Positions 47,583 to 56,868 of a stretch of 62,771 nt of DNA are shown here, piece by piece. The stretch covers positions 1-62,771 of the forward strand of contig ONBX01000021.1 in assembly GCA_900316205.1 (NCBI GenBank). The letters are read 5' to 3'. Both the position numbers and the translations under genes were made by a program. The notes beneath the pieces were generated by a model that saw only the letters and a program-made list of their open reading frames with translations, was not told the DNA's origin and did no database searches. Position 1 is the first letter of the stretch; each line of letters opens with the position of its first letter. Source of the stretch: an uncultured Eubacteriales bacterium (GTDB taxonomy: Bacteria; Bacillota; Clostridia; Oscillospirales; Oscillospiraceae).

Positions 47583-49595
47583 ATGGAAACCAAAAACATT
47601 CGCAACATCGCCCTCCTGGGCCACGGCAACAGCGGCAAGACCAGTCTGGCTGAGAGCATGCTCTTTGTGACCGGCACCATCGATCGTCAGGGCAAGGTCT
47701 CTGACGGCAACACCACCTGCGACTACGACGCGGAAGAGATCAAACGCCAGATCACCATTGCAACCTCCATTGCCCCTGTCAGCTTCGGCGGCAAGAAGAT
47801 CAACGTGCTGGACTGCCCGGGCTACTTCGACTTTATCGGTGAGACCCTGTGCGCCCTGCGCGCTGTGGAAGCCGGCGCCATCCTGGTCACCGCCAAGGAC
47901 GGCATCTCCGTCGGCGCCGAGCGTATGTGGAAGGCTACCAAGGCCGCAAACCTGCCCACCATGTTTGTAGTGTCCAAGACCGATGAGGAGCACGGCGACT
48001 TTTTTGCCGTAGTGGACGCGCTGCGTGAGAAGTACGGCAGCATCGTCGCTCCCGTGACCGTTCCCACCTCCGACGGCACCGGTGTCATCGATCTGGTGAA
48101 GAACGTGGCTTATGTTACCAAGGGCGGTAAGACCACCAAGACCGAGGTCCCCGCTGCCGACGCCGGTCATGTGGAAGACCTGCGCATGGAGCTGATGGAG
48201 ACCGCCGCCGGCGCTACCGAGGAACTGATGGAGAAGTTCTTCGAGGAGATGGAGCTGAGCGAGGAAGACACCATTGCCGGTATCAAGGCCGGTGTCGCCA
48301 CCCGTGACGTGATCCCTGTGTTCGCCAGCGCCGCCATGCAGAACATCGGCACCGAGGCCCTGCTGCAGGGCATTGCCGACTACGTTCCCGATCCCTCCGA
48401 GGCCGAGGGCATCGACCCCAACGGTCCTGTCCAGGGCTTCGTGTTCAAGACCGTGTCCGACCAGTTCGGCAAGTACAGCTTTGTGAAGGTCATGAAGGGC
48501 ACCATCACCTCCGACCTCTCTCTCCGCAACCTCCGCGCTTCCAGCACTGACAAGCTGGGCCGCCTCTACACCGCCACCGGCAAGAAAATGACCGAGGTCA
48601 AGGACGCCTGCTGCGGCGACATCGTTGCCGTCGGCAAGATGGATTGGAAGACCGGCGATACCGTGTGCGATCCCAAGAACGAGGACGAGCTTCCCGCCAT
48701 TGAGATGCCCGAACCCTGCTACTCCATGGCCATCTCCCCCAAGACCAAGGGCCAGGACGACAAGGTCGCCGGCGGCCTTGCCAGACTGAACGAGGAAGAC
48801 ATTTCCTTCACCCTGGTGAACAACGCGGAGACCCACCAGATGGTCATCTCCGGCCAGGGCGACATCCAGGTGGACGTGCTCTGCGCCAAGCTGAAGAGCC
48901 GCTTCGGTGTGGAGACCGAGCTGAAGCCCGCCCGCGTGGCTTACCGCGAGAAGATCAAGGGCAAGGTGGAAGCCCACGGCCGTCACAAGAAGCAGTCCGG
49001 TGGTTCCGGTCAGTTCGGTGACGTTTGGATCCGCTTCGAGCCCCAGGAGGAGCAGGACGAGATGATCTTCGCCGAGGAAGTATTCGGCGGCTCTGTTCCC
49101 AAAAACTTCTTCCCCTCTGTGGAAAAGGGTCTGCGCAACGCGGTGCAGAAGGGCGTTTTGGCGGGTTACCCGCTGGTCGGCCTGAAGGCCACCCTGTACG
49201 ACGGCTCCTACCACCCCGTGGACTCCAACGATATGGCCTTCCAGACCGCTGCGCGCCTGGCCTATCAGGACGGCATCCCCAAGGCCAAGCCCACCATCCT
49301 GGAGCCCATCGGCCTGCTGCAGGTCAGCATTCCCGATGAGAACCTGGGCGATATCATGAGCGACATCAGCTCCAAGCGCCGCGGCACCGTGCTGGGCATG
49401 ACTGCTGAGGACGGCATGCAGACCGTGGAGGCCGAGGTCCCCATGGCGGAGATGAGCTCCTACACCATTGACCTGCGCTCCATGACCCAGGGCCGCGGTT
49501 CCTTCACCTGCAAGTTCATCCGTTACGAGGAAGCTCCCGGCAACGTGCAGCAGAAGGTCATCGAAGAGGCCAAGGCGCTGGCTGAGGCTGAATAA
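47583..49595 (+). CDS. Elongation factor G-like GTPase (EF-G paralogue)
   Basis: A 670-residue translational GTPase with the five-domain EF-G layout. The P-loop is GHGNSGKTSL (residues 13-22), G3 is DCPGYFDF near residue 78, where canonical EF-G has DTPGH, so the catalytic His is replaced by Tyr. G4 is SKTDEE near residue 132. Domain IV carries HGRHKKQSGGSGQFGDVWIRF and KVEAHG. The pattern matches the EF-G2/EF-G-like group whose role is poorly defined; canonical fusA should lie elsewhere. It is monocistronic with a strong promoter. GAGAGG precedes the ATG. Confidence 0.9.
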   Translation: METKNIRNIALLGHGNSGKTSLAESMLFVTGTIDRQGKVSDGNTTCDYDAEEIKRQITIATSIAPVSFGGKKINVLDCPGYFDFIGETLCALRAVEAGAILVTAKDGISVGAERMWKATKAANLPTMFVVSKTDEEHGDFFAVVDALREKYGSIVAPVTVPTSDGTGVIDLVKNVAYVTKGGKTTKTEVPAADAGHVEDLRMELMETAAGATEELMEKFFEEMELSEEDTIAGIKAGVATRDVIPVFASAAMQNIGTEALLQGIADYVPDPSEAEGIDPNGPVQGFVFKTVSDQFGKYSFVKVMKGTITSDLSLRNLRASSTDKLGRLYTATGKKMTEVKDACCGDIVAVGKMDWKTGDTVCDPKNEDELPAIEMPEPCYSMAISPKTKGQDDKVAGGLARLNEEDISFTLVNNAETHQMVISGQGDIQVDVLCAKLKSRFGVETELKPARVAYREKIKGKVEAHGRHKKQSGGSGQFGDVWIRFEPQEEQDEMIFAEEVFGGSVPKNFFPSVEKGLRNAVQKGVLAGYPLVGLKATLYDGSYHPVDSNDMAFQTAARLAYQDGIPKAKPTILEPIGLLQVSIPDENLGDIMSDISSKRRGTVLGMTAEDGMQTVEAEVPMAEMSSYTIDLRSMTQGRGSFTCKFIRYEEAPGNVQQKVIEEAKALAEAE

Positions 49596-50987: not shown

Positions 50988-53900
50988 TCAGAGCCGGAGA
51001 AAAGCGCTGATCAGCAGCACAGGCAGGGCCCAGAGCAGCAGGAACAGCAGCAGGAAGCCGGCGGAGACAGTGCCTGCGGAGAGGAGTTTCACAAAGACGA
51101 CGATCACACCAAGCACCGCGGCCAGAACGGTCAGCAACAGGTTGATGCGCACCGCCAGATACAGGCTGCGGGCGGTGTCGGCCATGTGCACCAGGGGCCC
51201 CAAACCTTCCCGGCAGACCACCGCGGCGGGCTTGCTGTCGGCGGAGGGCTTGGCCTCGGAGATGGCGAAGCGATCCACATAGGGCGGAAAATCATAGCCG
51301 TCGGTGGCGACCTCAAAGCAGTCGGACAGCATTTCAGGCGTCACCAGAAAGTCCCGGATGGCGAAGATGGGGTGGCGATTGGAGCGGATCAGACCCACCA
51401 GTGCCTTGCGCACCTGAGGCTGACCTTCGTACTTCATGTTGAAGATACCGCAGAGAATGCCGTCCACCGCCAGGAGAACCGTGGTCTTGCCCACCAGACG
51501 GTAGGGTACGCGGACGTTCATGAGACGCATCAGGTCCAGCCCGCCGCAGAGGATCACGCTGCCGTCGATGACGCCCTTCATGCCGCCGCCGGAGAGGTTC
51601 TCAAAGCCCTCCACTCGCCGCATGGAGCAGTTGTTCTTTTCCATCAGCTGGGAGAAGCAGGGAGCCAGGTCTGAGCCGGAGGCGCAGATCATGGTGCCGG
51701 CGTAGGAGATGATGGTTTCCGGCTGCACTTCCGCAAAAATACGCACGGTGTCGATCTCCACGCTGCCCTCGGGGAAGAGATCCCGGTCGGTGACGATCAG
51801 GTTGTCGCTGCTGCCGATATCGCTGATGCCGGACCAGCCGGCAATAGCGGCGCCGCTGTGGAAGATACGGAGAGAGCCGAAAAGGAAGGGAAGGGCGAAG
51901 CAGAGCAGCGCCATCATGGGCACCGCGGGGCACAAGATCGCCGTAAAGATGTACAGAAATTCGGGGAAGGCGTGTTTGGCAATGGCAACCACCAGGGACA
52001 TCAGCAGTGCCAGGATGGCAAGAACGGGAGAGAGACGGTTGAAGGTGGTCTCATCGGGAGCGGCTTCTTCTGTCCTGCGGACAAAGCCCTTGGGCGGACG
52101 CATGGACTTGAGCAGGGTCAGCCCGCTGCCCTTCACATCCGGCTCCGCGGTAACGGCATAGCAGCGCTTGCCGATGGCAGGCACACGCAGCGCCTTGCGC
52201 AGGCCTCTGGCACTGGCCAGAGAGGACATCAGCACGCCCAGAAAGGACAGACTGGAGATCAGGCAGAGAGGCATATGGGGCGTACCCATGAAGCCGATGC
52301 AGACAGAAAGAGCATCCAGGCTTGTGAGAATACAGCCGAGCACCGCCAATGAGTCTGCTCCGAAGCGGCCCCGGGCCAGATTCACAAGCGAGCCGGTGAC
52401 CACATCCAGACCCAGCAGCAGGATCGTGAGCTGGATGGCCAGGGACAGACCGGAGGCTACCTGCACGGTGCGCAGCGCCCCGGAGACCGGCAGACCCAGC
52501 GTGATCCAGGCCAGAACGGCCAGCAGCACCAGACCGATGCGCACCCGCATGCGGAGGCTGGTGACGAAGGAGCCGTAGTACTTGGAGGCAGTGGCGGGGG
52601 AGACCTCAGGCCCCAGATCCTCACTCTCATCCTCCATGGTGGAGGCGGTGCCGGTCCGGCTGCGTCTGGCGCCGAAGAGACGGACCAGCAGACTGGAGGC
52701 CATGCCGGAGAGGTATTGGCCAAAGGTGGGGAAGGCGTTGGGGTCGTCTCCGTCTTCCTCGTCATAATCCCGATCTGGGGCGTATTCCGGCCTGAGTCGG
52801 TCATCATAGCCCTCGGTATGTTCAGGCGCTTCCGTCTCGGCGGGAGGCGCCTTCTTTGCGCTTCTGCGGAACAGACTCTTTTTCTCCAGAGGCTTTTCCG
52901 GAAGCTCCTCCTCGCCTGCTACCCAATGGAAGCCCACATTGCCGCTGGGCTTGGGGGGAACATAGCTCTCGTCCGCGCTCAGATCCAGCTCCTTGCCATC
53001 GAAGACCATGGTGCTCTTCCGCTCCCCTGTGAGGTTGAAGCGGGGATCGATCTCCTCGGAAGGAATGACGTAGCTGCGGGCGGGCTTGGGACGGGTGAGC
53101 TCGCTGCCCTCCTTTCGGGAGGGCTCCACCGCGGCTGCGGGCTGGGGAGGCGCGGGATCCTGGCCGAGAAGACGGCGCAGGCTCTCGCTCCAGTCCGCGG
53201 CGGTGAGGTCAGGAACGGTTCCGGCCTCTTCCGCAGGCGGCGCGGGCTGCGGCTCGGAAACGGGAGCTTCCGCCGCCGGTCGGCGGAGACCGCCCTGGGG
53301 CTTGCCTCCCTCGCCGCGGGAGGAAAAGCTGTCACCCCGCATCTGCTGCAGGATGTCCCGGGCTTCCTCCTCCATGCGGGAGACTCTGCCGCTTCCGCCG
53401 GCTCTGGGTGAGGCGGAAGGCGCGGCAGGGGAGGCAGCCGCCGCTCTGCGAGCGGGTTCGGCCTTCCGCTCCTCGCCGATGGCATCGGCCACGGCAGGAA
53501 TGGCAGCAAGTATATCGTTGTATTCAGCTAAAATATCATCTACGGACATGGCGGAGAATTCAACATCCTCATCTATAATCTCTCTTCGCCGAGTGGAAGG
53601 GGAGGGGCTTGCGTCTCTGGAAGAAGGCGGAGCCGGTTGGGGAGAAACCGAAGGCTTTTCTTTCTTTTCGGGAAAGGCTTTCTCACGCCGCTCGCGGCGG
53701 AGGAAGCCGAAGGTCTCGGCGGCTTCGGAGGGCGACAGAGGAGCGGGCGGGGCAGCTTCGGGAGCTGGGGCCGCCTCTGCTGTGGGAGCCGGCTCCTTTC
53801 GGTTCCGTTCCGAGCCCCGTTTCTGACGGGTGGGACGGGAGGCGTCGGAGGAAGCGCTTGCCTTACCGGAGGCGGGACGGGAGCGCTGCTCCTTTTCCCT

Positions 53901-55046
53901 GCGCCGGGGAGCGGTCTCAGCGGCCGAGGGGGCCGCGCCGGTAGGGGGGAGAGAGGAAGCCTCCTCCCTTATGCGGGCGGCTTCCCGGCGGGAACGCGGC
54001 GCGTCGGCACGGGGAGCGGGCTGCTCCGCGGGCTCCGTGTATTCCGCCCAGAACTCCGACAAAATGTCGTTTACGGACATGTTGAGAACATCGGGATCGG
54101 CCTTCGGCTCTTCCTTGGGCCGGGAACGCGGTGTTGGGGCGGCAGCCTCCTCCTCAGGGAAGAGACGCTTGGCGGGTGCCTCGACATAGGAGGCTTCCTC
54201 TTCCGGTTCCGTGGCTGGCTTTGCCTTCTTGGCGGAAGCAGAGCGCTTTTTGCCCAGACTGCCCAGAAAATCCTGAATGCCGTTGCGCTTGCCGCCGGCT
54301 TTTGCCTTTTCGGAGAAGAAAGACCGGGACTCCTCCGCGGGGGCGGGAGCCTCCTGCCGCCGTCTGCGGCGGGGGAGAGGCTCGGGCTCTACGGGTGCGG
54401 TGCTCTCTTCCAGACCGCCCCAGTATTCTGCAAGGATGGCGTCCACCGAAAGACCGGTGAGTTCTTCCTCCGGAATGTGGACTTCCACCTCCGGCGCGGC
54501 GGGGCGAACAGGCGCGGACACCGCGGACCGCACCGGTTCCGGGGCGGGGGCGTCCTCTTCCTCCGCAATGCGCACAGGCTCTTCCTTTTTGCCCCAGAGC
54601 AGCTCGTCGAAGCTGGGGAGCTCCTCCTGGGGGACATGCTCCCTGGAGGAACGGGGTTTCGTTTCGGAACGGAGGCGGGAAAGAAAGCCGCTAGCCAGAC
54701 TTTTCAGATCGGGGCGGGCTTTTTCGGAGGGAGAAGGCGATTCCGCCTCGGCCACCGGCAGATCGGAACGCTCGTTCTCCGGAACAGGAGCTTCCTTATC
54801 CCAGCGGGAGCTGAGACGCTCCTGGGAGGCAGCACGATCCCGACGGGGTTCATAGATGCGCACGCTTTCCTCCTGCTCCTCAGAAGCGCGCAAAGCGTCC
54901 AGAGACGCGCGGGAAAGGCGGCGCCCGGAAGAGACCGACCGGGCTTCCTCCTGCTGCAGCTCATCCTGATACTCCGAGAGAATATCGCTTACACGGTAAT
55001 CCCGGGACTCCATATTCTGTTCTTCATCCGAAGAAAAGCGACTCAT
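50988..55046 (-). CDS. Giant pseudo-P-type ATPase with disordered, motif-repeat N-terminal half
   Basis: A 1352-residue protein. Residues 1 to about 820 are low-complexity, rich in Pro, Glu, Ala, Arg and Ser. They contain four copies of a motif: VSDILSEYQ (residue 19), LSVDAILAEYW (about 198), MSVNDILSEFW (about 322) and MSVDDILAEYN (about 501). The C-terminal part (about 830-1352) has six to eight membrane helices and a heavy-metal P-type ATPase layout. Its motifs are degenerate: ILCPAVPM for CPC, VTDRDLFPEGS for DKTGT, no TGE loop, and no TGD or GDGxND. Transport activity is therefore unlikely; a scaffold or sensor role is inferred. It lies 51 nt after rlmB on the same strand. Confidence 0.8.
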   Translation of the reverse strand: MSRFSSDEEQNMESRDYRVSDILSEYQDELQQEEARSVSSGRRLSRASLDALRASEEQEESVRIYEPRRDRAASQERLSSRWDKEAPVPENERSDLPVAEAESPSPSEKARPDLKSLASGFLSRLRSETKPRSSREHVPQEELPSFDELLWGKKEEPVRIAEEEDAPAPEPVRSAVSAPVRPAAPEVEVHIPEEELTGLSVDAILAEYWGGLEESTAPVEPEPLPRRRRRQEAPAPAEESRSFFSEKAKAGGKRNGIQDFLGSLGKKRSASAKKAKPATEPEEEASYVEAPAKRLFPEEEAAAPTPRSRPKEEPKADPDVLNMSVNDILSEFWAEYTEPAEQPAPRADAPRSRREAARIREEASSLPPTGAAPSAAETAPRRREKEQRSRPASGKASASSDASRPTRQKRGSERNRKEPAPTAEAAPAPEAAPPAPLSPSEAAETFGFLRRERREKAFPEKKEKPSVSPQPAPPSSRDASPSPSTRRREIIDEDVEFSAMSVDDILAEYNDILAAIPAVADAIGEERKAEPARRAAAASPAAPSASPRAGGSGRVSRMEEEARDILQQMRGDSFSSRGEGGKPQGGLRRPAAEAPVSEPQPAPPAEEAGTVPDLTAADWSESLRRLLGQDPAPPQPAAAVEPSRKEGSELTRPKPARSYVIPSEEIDPRFNLTGERKSTMVFDGKELDLSADESYVPPKPSGNVGFHWVAGEEELPEKPLEKKSLFRRSAKKAPPAETEAPEHTEGYDDRLRPEYAPDRDYDEEDGDDPNAFPTFGQYLSGMASSLLVRLFGARRSRTGTASTMEDESEDLGPEVSPATASKYYGSFVTSLRMRVRIGLVLLAVLAWITLGLPVSGALRTVQVASGLSLAIQLTILLLGLDVVTGSLVNLARGRFGADSLAVLGCILTSLDALSVCIGFMGTPHMPLCLISSLSFLGVLMSSLASARGLRKALRVPAIGKRCYAVTAEPDVKGSGLTLLKSMRPPKGFVRRTEEAAPDETTFNRLSPVLAILALLMSLVVAIAKHAFPEFLYIFTAILCPAVPMMALLCFALPFLFGSLRIFHSGAAIAGWSGISDIGSSDNLIVTDRDLFPEGSVEIDTVRIFAEVQPETIISYAGTMICASGSDLAPCFSQLMEKNNCSMRRVEGFENLSGGGMKGVIDGSVILCGGLDLMRLMNVRVPYRLVGKTTVLLAVDGILCGIFNMKYEGQPQVRKALVGLIRSNRHPIFAIRDFLVTPEMLSDCFEVATDGYDFPPYVDRFAISEAKPSADSKPAAVVCREGLGPLVHMADTARSLYLAVRINLLLTVLAAVLGVIVVFVKLLSAGTVSAGFLLLFLLLWALPVLLISAFLRL

Positions 55047-55097: not shown

Positions 55098-55853
55098 TTA
55101 CAAACTGCGCTGGCGAAGGATCTCGTACATGGTGATGGCGGCGGCTGCGCTGGCGTTGAGGGAACTGACCCGGCCCTTCATGGGCAGGCTCACGATGAAA
55201 TCGCAGCACTCCCGCACCAGACGGCCCATGCCGTCTCCCTCAGAGCCGATGACCAGAGCAAGGGGACCGGAAAAGTCCGTGTGCCACAGGTCGCTCTGCC
55301 CGTCGGCGGCGGTGCCGTAGACCCAGACGCCCCGTTCCTTCAGCTCCTTGAGCGCGGCGGGGATGTTGGGGACTCTGGCAACGGCCATATGCTCGGCAGC
55401 GCCGGCGCTGGCCTTGTCCACCACGGCGGTGAGCCCCGCGCTGCGGCGCTTGGGGATGATGACGCCGTGAGCGCCGGCACATTCGGCGGAACGGATGATG
55501 GCGCCTAAGTTGTGCCCGTCACTGATCTCGTCACAGACGATCAGGAAGGGAGCTTCGTCCCGCTCTTCGGCAATGGCGAAGAGATCCTCCACCGAGCAGT
55601 AATCCCGCACGGCCACCAGTGCGATGACACCCTGATGGGCATGGGTCCTGGACATGAAGTCCAGCTTGCGCCGGTCACATTCCACCACGACGATGCCCTT
55701 GTCCCGGGCGGTGGAGGCGATGTGACCCAGGGTCCTGTCCACCTCGCCCTTGCTGATATAGAGCTTGTCCATGGCGCGGCCGGCCCGCAGGGCCTCCATA
55801 ACGGCGTTGCGGCCCTCAATGATCTCGTTCTGAATCCCAGTTTCCTTCTCCAT
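55098..55853 (-). CDS. rlmB: 23S rRNA 2'-O-ribose methyltransferase RlmB/TrmH family
   Basis: A 251-residue SPOUT methyltransferase. The N-terminal substrate-binding domain starts NEIIEGRNAVMEALRAGRAMDK. The knotted catalytic domain has motif 1 DGHNLGAIIRSAECAGAHGVI near residue 114, motif 2 ALVIGSEGDGMG near residue 203, and motif 3 SLPMKGRVSSLNASAAAAI near residue 225. It methylates a guanosine in 23S rRNA (G2251 in E. coli). ATG 55853 is supported by GGAG upstream. It precedes the pseudo-P-type-ATPase gene in the same transcript. Confidence 0.92.
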   Translation of the reverse strand: MEKETGIQNEIIEGRNAVMEALRAGRAMDKLYISKGEVDRTLGHIASTARDKGIVVVECDRRKLDFMSRTHAHQGVIALVAVRDYCSVEDLFAIAEERDEAPFLIVCDEISDGHNLGAIIRSAECAGAHGVIIPKRRSAGLTAVVDKASAGAAEHMAVARVPNIPAALKELKERGVWVYGTAADGQSDLWHTDFSGPLALVIGSEGDGMGRLVRECCDFIVSLPMKGRVSSLNASAAAAITMYEILRQRSL

Positions 55854-56022
55854 TGCATACGACTCCAAGTTATAATTTTACTGATAAAGCATACCACAGC
55901 TAATGCTAAAAAGGAAGCATAAGATTGCAAATTTACAAAATTTTATAGACTTTGCCTGCGCGGCAGAGTATGATATCGGCGTGGATCAAGATCCCGATTC
56001 TTCAGAAAAGAAAGGTGGTTCC

Positions 56023-56868
56023 ATGAAAGACCCCATGCGATCTGTGGAGCGCTTTGCCTATAATCATCCCCGCTTCGGTATTCCCAACCTGATGCGTTAC
56101 ATCGTGGGCGGAAACGTGCTGTTCTGGCTGGCGGGGGTGTTGCTGCGCAACTATACGCTGCTGAGCTATATCACCTTTGATGCCGCGGCCATCCTTCACG
56201 GCCAGGTCTGGCGCCTCGTCACCTTCATGTTTTATCCCATCAGCGGCAGCATGCTGTTCGCACTTCTGTCCTTCTATTTCTATTACTGGATGGGGAGCAC
56301 GCTGGAGCAGTATTGGGGTACGCCGCAGTTCAACATTTTTATGCTGCTGGGCTGGTTCTTCACGGTGGTTTTCGGCTTTGCGGTGTACTTCATCACAGGA
56401 CACAGTCCCCAGATCACCGGCACCTATCTTTACTACTCCCTGTTTTTCTCCTATGCCACACTGTTCCCGGAGATGCAGGTGATGCTCTTCATGCTGATCC
56501 CGGTGAAAATGAAATGGCTTGCCATCGTGGACGCGCTGTTCTTCGCCTATGCGGTGGTGAGCGGCTTTGCCTGGTTCCCGGAGAACCTGCTGCCACTGGT
56601 GGCGCTGCTCAACTACTTCATTTTCTTCGGCGGCGAGCTTTGGAACCGCCGCCCGAGGAAGGCCAGCGCCGCCACGGTGAACTTCCGGCGTGAGAGCGCG
56701 CGGATCCGCAGGGAACAGAGAGGGGAGCTTTACAAGCACAAATGCTCCGTCTGCGGGCGGACGGACGTGTCCAACCCGGAACTGGAGTTTCGCTACTGCT
56801 CCCGCTGCGCCGGCTATCACTGCTTCTGCCAGGACCACATCGACAATCACATCCATTTTACGGAGTGA
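56023..56868 (+). CDS. Rhomboid-like membrane protein with C-terminal zinc finger, catalytic motif absent
   Basis: A 281-residue protein. Six membrane helices resemble a rhomboid fold (ITFDAAAILHGQVWRLVTFMF, FYFYYWMGSTLEQYWGTPQF), but the catalytic GxSG is absent; the equivalent region reads ITGTYLYYSLFFSYA. A basic linker leads to a Cys/His cluster, HKCSVCGRTDVSN, then YCSRCAGYHCFCQDHIDNHI, which could bind two zinc ions. It is an inactive rhomboid relative or a derlin-like scaffold, an inference. ATG 56023 has AAAGGTGG. It stands alone, before a tRNA promoter. Confidence 0.75.
   Translation: MKDPMRSVERFAYNHPRFGIPNLMRYIVGGNVLFWLAGVLLRNYTLLSYITFDAAAILHGQVWRLVTFMFYPISGSMLFALLSFYFYYWMGSTLEQYWGTPQFNIFMLLGWFFTVVFGFAVYFITGHSPQITGTYLYYSLFFSYATLFPEMQVMLFMLIPVKMKWLAIVDALFFAYAVVSGFAWFPENLLPLVALLNYFIFFGGELWNRRPRKASAATVNFRRESARIRREQRGELYKHKCSVCGRTDVSNPELEFRYCSRCAGYHCFCQDHIDNHIHFTE

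Follow-up and report, generated by a model that had tools for sequence, protein, structure and literature searches.

Why a protein with the membrane layout of a heavy-metal pump should have degenerate catalytic motifs, and carry several copies of a short peptide on a long disordered arm, is the question raised by one gene in a 62,771-nucleotide stretch of DNA (the window) from an uncultured Eubacteriales bacterium of the Oscillospiraceae (assembly GCA_900316205.1, contig ONBX01000021.1, positions 1 to 62,771 of the forward strand). The source genome, in which the window forms contig 34, amounts to 2.78 Mb and is 96.4% complete. The gene encodes a pseudo-P1B-ATPase which, judged from its sequence, is almost certainly no ordinary metal pump. 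The ten-residue motif of its arm recurs at the ends of two unrelated membrane proteins, signal peptidase II (LspA) and a glycosidase of the NAGPA type, and the window's own genome holds all three carriers. On balance we consider it likely that the pseudo-ATPase is a membrane platform and that one receptor gathers three envelope proteins by their motif helix. A literature search found nothing on a bacterial pseudo-P1B-ATPase or on the motif; most subscription journals lay outside that search, so a precedent in print is possible.

Results

A predicted P1B-ATPase fold without its catalytic motifs

The gene and the elements of its core are as follows.

50988..55046, minus strand: pseudo-P1B-ATPase gene, a complete open reading frame of 1352 codons plus stop
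50991..52583, minus strand: P1B-ATPase-like core, residues 822-1352, with P1B-fold membrane helices and degenerate P and N domains
52047..52187, minus strand: actuator-domain remnant, residues 954-1000, chiefly one beta-hairpin
51765..51791, minus strand: phosphorylation-site position, with TDRDLFPEG in place of DKTGTLTEG
51192..51224, minus strand: hinge region, AVVCREGLGPL, without GDGxND

An earlier note on this DNA, made from the sequence alone, had described a P1B-like membrane layout with degenerate phosphorylation, actuator and hinge motifs and had proposed that a predicted structure of the C-terminal part be compared with P1B ATPases. Both points were borne out, as the predicted structure of the core matches solved P1B structures in fold, with the membrane helices and the P and N domains present, and the phosphorylation and hinge motifs are degenerate and the actuator domain reduced as listed above. 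An order-wide profile of the pseudo-ATPase (A3) matches the solved structure 3rfu at 5.6e-29, and a genus-only profile (A2) matches no solved structure at 0.01. The window protein has no Pfam match at E 1 and scores 24.6 bits (E 1e-5) against TIGR01525, far below the curated cut-off of 346.25 bits.

Catalytic motifs were sought in the last 530 residues of each homologue in three sets: 121 proteins, being the window's own and the best 120 of 898 public homologues (E <= 0.001, the weak end of which may include true ATPases); 80 named loci, which overlap the first set; and 19 homologues from other families. DKTG[TS], the [ST]GD loop and GDGxND were each absent from all members (0/121, 0/80 and 0/19). 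The tripeptide TGE[STA] occurs in 23/121, 18/80 and 1/19 homologues, at positions whose equivalence to the actuator TGE is not established, and the same limit applies to the window protein, in which the hairpin of the reduced actuator domain carries TAEP where that motif is sought. In the profile alignment with 3rfu, LVVDKTGTLTEG stands opposite LVVTDRDLFPEG, placing Thr in the column of the phosphorylated Asp and Asp in the Lys column, and RD stands opposite TGD with the Asp retained.

The altered P domain is itself strongly conserved in the genus: TDRDxFP, NRHPIFAIRDF and TDGYDFPP all contain residues that vary hardly or not at all. Six homologue pairs gave dN of 0.014-0.126 and dS of 0.41-0.69 over the core, indicating that it is under purifying selection. 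The lack of DKTG, TGD and GDGxND in every homologue checked strongly supports the earlier proposal that the protein is not a pump, and the role of a scaffold is well supported; a putative sensor role was the note's alternative.

A motif-bearing disordered arm

The remainder of the protein is an arm that bears the motif.

52617..55046, minus strand: disordered arm, residues 1 to about 810, presumably cytosolic, with low predicted local distance difference test (pLDDT) values except at short helices, and rich in E, A, P, S and R
54969..54998, minus strand: motif copy 1, residues 17-26, YRVSDILSEY, a degenerate copy; other families likewise have copies close to the N-terminus
54423..54452, minus strand: motif copy 2, residues 199-208, LSVDAILAEY
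54051..54080, minus strand: motif copy 3, residues 323-332, MSVNDILSEF
53520..53549, minus strand: motif copy 4, residues 500-509, MSVDDILAEY, which opens the longest arm helix (502-536)

Mean pLDDT over residues 1-679 is 52.8. In the model a helix starts at each of the four motif copies (residues 19, 201, 325 and 502), and other short helices are also predicted. The pattern [LM]SV[DN]xIL[AS]E[YF], of which four spaced copies had been claimed, holds exactly for copies 2 to 4 whereas copy 1 departs from it. In generalised form the motif reads Phi-[STDN]-[VLI]-[DE]-[DE]-I-L-x-E-[FY]. No motif match arose in 20,000 shuffles. An aromatic or aliphatic residue leads, S, T, D or N comes next, and acidic residues and I-L-x-E-F/Y follow; this is the arrangement of a helix N-cap and hydrophobic staple, and the motif as modelled looks like a self-capped amphipathic helix.

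Further conserved blocks are found in the arm between 52617 and 53500 (minus strand) and in its orthologues: SRMEEEARDIL, LRRLLGQDPAPPQP and DPRFNLSGERKS-x-MVFGGKELDLSADE. From these the arm may hold more than one binding site.

The motif recurs on unrelated membrane proteins

A strict codon pattern of the motif was found at four places in the window's own genome, three of them inside the pseudo-ATPase gene. Across 60 genomes a related pattern returned 47 places, compared with 2 for the reversed control, and 42 of the 47 fall in three families: 18 pseudo-ATPase (assigned by position), 20 LspA and 4 glycosidase-like. Eighteen of the LspA places were read, including a tail fragment on a separate contig (G036) and a shifted frame (G017), and two are probable and unread (G002:C290, G025:C209); one glycosidase-like place (L141) is a fragment without the enzyme domain. 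The other five places, DprA-like, epimerase-like (two), GDPD-like and one short open reading frame, were taken as chance; they were judged from their translations and not by family search, G021:C5 from the matched letters. In the sequence gathered here, itself enriched for carriers, there were 135 matches and none to the reversed motif. A short conserved motif lying in disorder and shared by unrelated proteins, which defines a short linear motif, is thus what was found, the disorder being modelled for the pseudo-ATPase arm alone. The earlier suggestion of a docking peptide gains support from this recurrence across families, from the predicted helix in a disordered arm and from the placing of the motif at the ends of two unrelated membrane proteins.

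LspA. The LspA domain (PF01252) scores over its curated cut-off, and the protein of the window's own genome ends SSFDLDDILAEFK. Among 37 genomes of the genus, 31 have LspA and 6 do not, and in 26 of the 31 the protein ends in the motif after a post-core tail of 164-279 residues. The remaining five comprise three that run off the contig, one whose frame is shifted, so that the motif stands in the alternative frame, and one (G004) that ends without it; the LspA of G042 (L230) is not counted among the tails read. Among the best 120 of 1736 public homologues of the own LspA, a choice which favours close relatives, 115 carry one terminal motif, which in 114 stops exactly one residue short of the C-terminus. 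LspA has kept the motif in three genomes, G001, G024 and G027, where the arm of the pseudo-ATPase has lost it.

A second motif, DPF-x-x-W (mostly DPFAEWERAN), is present in the LspA tails of 112 of the same best 120 homologues (P0124-P0243; for example L237, 8206-9261). The FtsZ of the window's own genome ends EDPFDSIFKIFNTK, which has only DPF in common with this second motif, perhaps by chance. As that end is not the docking motif, mimicry of the FtsZ peptide was dropped as an explanation.

Glycosidase. The own glycosidase relative begins MSEKDFELNDILNEF, with the motif ahead of a membrane segment. Its NAGPA domain was confirmed by Pfam in the relative from G008, which the own protein matches at 5.0e-89. 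In 29 glycosidase open reading frames, read from 30 loci, the motif was found in 11 by a loose regular expression and in 4 more by eye (L243, L244, L250, L253), and neither approach found it in the other 14.

Copy number and spacing vary among pseudo-ATPases

Motif copies were counted in 75 closed pseudo-ATPase frames from the named loci; L125, a far locus whose open frame is cut short, is in none of the motif counts. A strict regular expression found the motif in 47 (one copy in 34, two or three in 13) and none in 28, of which a relaxed expression recovered 14. In the 121-protein set, drawn as above from the best public homologues, one strict copy is present in 54, two to four in 58 and none in 9. 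Seven of 19 far homologues carry the strict motif within their first 110 residues, where shuffles predict 0.002, and four more carry a looser form. Independent members of the order extend the pattern, with YALDDILAEF in another genus of the same family (L277) and FSLDDILQEY in another family (L278).

Copy number by regular expression ranges from 0 to 4. Conservation of spacing, which the earlier note had offered as a check on its proposal, held in part: near relatives keep copies 2 to 4 in register, but copy number and spacing vary, a pattern that suits flexible docking more than an array of set spacing. The multivalent partner that the note envisaged is possible and not required, as 34 of the 75 closed frames and all 115 motif-bearing LspA tails have a single copy.

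A segment [DE]LP[ED]LP occurs near the N-terminus in 9 of the 75 closed frames (L045, L053, L054, L055, L061, L062, L068, L072, L074). All nine are without the strict docking motif, and the segment is perhaps a replaced docking site.

Distribution and gene neighbourhood

The order-wide alignment was searched over 196 genomes of the class. A full-length pseudo-ATPase was found in 9/9 genomes of the same order (314.8-760.3 bits), four of which had supplied sequences to that alignment and five of which are independent of it. None was found in the 187 genomes outside the order, where the best match (131.4 bits) is confined to the ATPase core. In a single-query search of 60 relatives, 29 of 37 genus genomes, the own included, gave a strong match, and 20 of 23 genomes from other families have a candidate pseudo-ATPase (G040, G041 and G047 do not). 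Six of the eight genus genomes without a strong match are 65-86% complete; G030 and G032 are about 92% complete, and true losses of the pseudo-ATPase are therefore possible.

The pseudo-ATPase gene has a conserved neighbour.

55098..55868, minus strand: rlmB (23S rRNA Gm2251 methyltransferase), 51 bp upstream of the pseudo-ATPase gene

A match to rlmB is found at 74/74 named loci having at least 800 bp upstream, and at 69 of the 74 it lies on the same strand and ends between -400 and +200 bp of the pseudo-ATPase open frame. Of 20 far loci, 19 have an upstream rlmB on the same strand, which in 18 overlaps the open frame or lies no more than about 200 bp from it and in L125 is about 1.1 kb off; in L118 there is no rlmB within the stretch examined. 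Retention at far loci shows the pairing to be old, and from this arrangement the two genes are likely to be co-expressed.

On the plus strand at 55903-56868 the window encodes a divergent rhomboid-like membrane protein with only sub-threshold rhomboid matches, whose C-terminus by eye is a Cys-rich, zinc-ribbon-like segment; its homologue cluster lies upstream of the operon on the opposite strand at 74/81 loci. An EF-G-like translation factor gene (47583-49595, plus strand) is convergent with the pseudo-ATPase gene in the window, and in 5/20 far loci (L120, L121, L125, L130, L135) it is directly downstream on the same strand.

Discussion

A probable shared docking site on three membrane proteins

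The N-terminus of P-type ATPases and the C-terminus of LspA are cytosolic. The glycosidase N-terminus should be cytosolic too because a membrane helix precedes an enzyme domain that should be exported, so that the motif-bearing ends of all three carriers are presumably on the same side of the membrane. The same ten-residue helix on three unrelated membrane proteins is most simply caused by a shared cytosolic reader, and we regard the motif as probably a docking site for such a receptor. We propose that, once the machinery for phosphorylation and hydrolysis had been lost, the metal-pump fold would have been retained to anchor the protein in the membrane and to bind other proteins, and that the long disordered arm would hold out a capped helix, in many cases close to its tip, much as a line carries bait. 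A single receptor, cytosolic or peripheral to the membrane and shared by the whole order, would bind the helix and thereby gather pseudo-ATPase, LspA and glycosidase at one membrane site. Extra arm copies in some lineages, the window's included, would raise avidity.

Several observations weigh against this proposal. The motif is short, and no receptor for it was found, so that we infer binding from the sequences. Even the relaxed expression recognises no motif in 14 of the 75 closed homologue frames, and the strict one finds none in 12 of the 19 far homologues; the motif is thus not essential everywhere. A motif-ended tail was found in 0/21 LspA from other families, a count that leaves out five further LspA from the order. 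Four genomes, G009, G014, G030 and G032 (65, 71, 92 and 92% complete, respectively), have the LspA motif and no strong pseudo-ATPase match, so that the two need not co-occur, unless assembly gaps explain all four.

These same genomes bear on where the reader lies. A role for the pseudo-ATPase core itself as receptor is unlikely, though worth keeping in view; its degenerate P and N domains, in which many Arg and aromatic positions are invariant, would then bind the acidic helix in cis, as autoinhibition, and in trans on LspA and the glycosidase. The strong conservation of the pseudo-P domain would be explained in this way, as would the pairing of an acidic motif with Arg in conserved core stretches and the retention of both core and LspA motif in the three genomes that have lost the arm motif. 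However, those three losses also suggest a reader that is independent of the arm, and the four genomes without a strong core match, two of them about 92% complete, point to a third protein rather than the core, barring assembly gaps. Moreover, LspA of other families reads without the tail, so that something else must explain why the core is conserved there. We give little credence to the motif being a handling signal, that is, a protease or chaperone recognition site or a membrane-targeting or turnover tag, instead of a scaffold docking site. Its position at chain ends, the LspA C-terminus in 114 of the best 120 homologues and the glycosidase N-terminus, is where degrons and targeting tags occur, but the internal arm copies at residues 199, 323 and 500 and the long linkers fit docking better, and membrane-targeting helices are usually basic, not acidic as here.

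Continued transport by a divergent catalytic cycle is very improbable. The P1B membrane layout is kept, every sequence of the genus alignment has an Asp next to the former phosphorylation site (TDRD), and the Asp of the TGD loop persists in RD; nevertheless, Thr and Asp occupy the columns of the phosphorylated Asp and the Lys, no homologue checked has any of the three catalytic motifs and the actuator survives only as a remnant. Hardly credible is a coincidental motif arising from low-complexity, acid-rich tails: the arm is compositionally biased, as by eye are the LspA tails, yet the shuffles gave 0/20,000 and the reversed controls 0 against 135 in the carrier-enriched sequence and 2 against 47 in whole genomes.

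Returning to a docking site read by a shared receptor, the motif-tailed LspA was found in this genus only, which makes its recruitment a local innovation, and with the arm motif present in several families this suggests that LspA took on a pre-existing docking code. More tentatively, and with somewhat less than even confidence, we propose that the helix of an order-wide pseudo-pump was copied de novo onto the ends of LspA and the phosphodiester glycosidase, pump and receptor together organising an envelope-assembly site in Oscillospiraceae-type Clostridia. In the own genome lspA belongs to a sepF-divIVA-ileS-lspA-rluD cluster, in which sepF, divIVA, lspA and a pseudouridine synthase have Pfam matches and ileS is assigned by size and place. 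DivIVA or SepF as the receptor is a lead only, since this gene order is common in Firmicutes.

If a common receptor reads the motif, a synthetic ten-residue helix would be a handle with which to fish out a membrane-organising hub in a major gut group known mostly from metagenomes. The proposal, if true, would also give an instance of unrelated proteins coming to share one docking motif; neither pseudoenzymes nor docking motifs are new as kinds.

Comparison with known systems

The window protein resembles P1B ATPases (CopA, 3rfu/4bbj; TIGR01525) in its predicted fold and membrane helices and in the succession of P and N domains, and its sequence relation to them is detectable. It differs from them in being without DKTGT, TGD and GDGxND, in its reduced actuator, in having CPA where the metal-binding CPC stands and in its disordered arm of about 810 residues. 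LspA (PF01252) is likened to it as the second carrier of the motif, the motif-ended tail of 164-279 residues in 26 genus genomes being absent from the 21 LspA of other families. There is a likeness in kind to the C-terminal peptide of FtsZ and the C-terminal tip of SSB, in each of which partners read a short conserved motif that ends a disordered linker; the motif described here differs from both in sequence and in being common to three unrelated membrane proteins of one genome.

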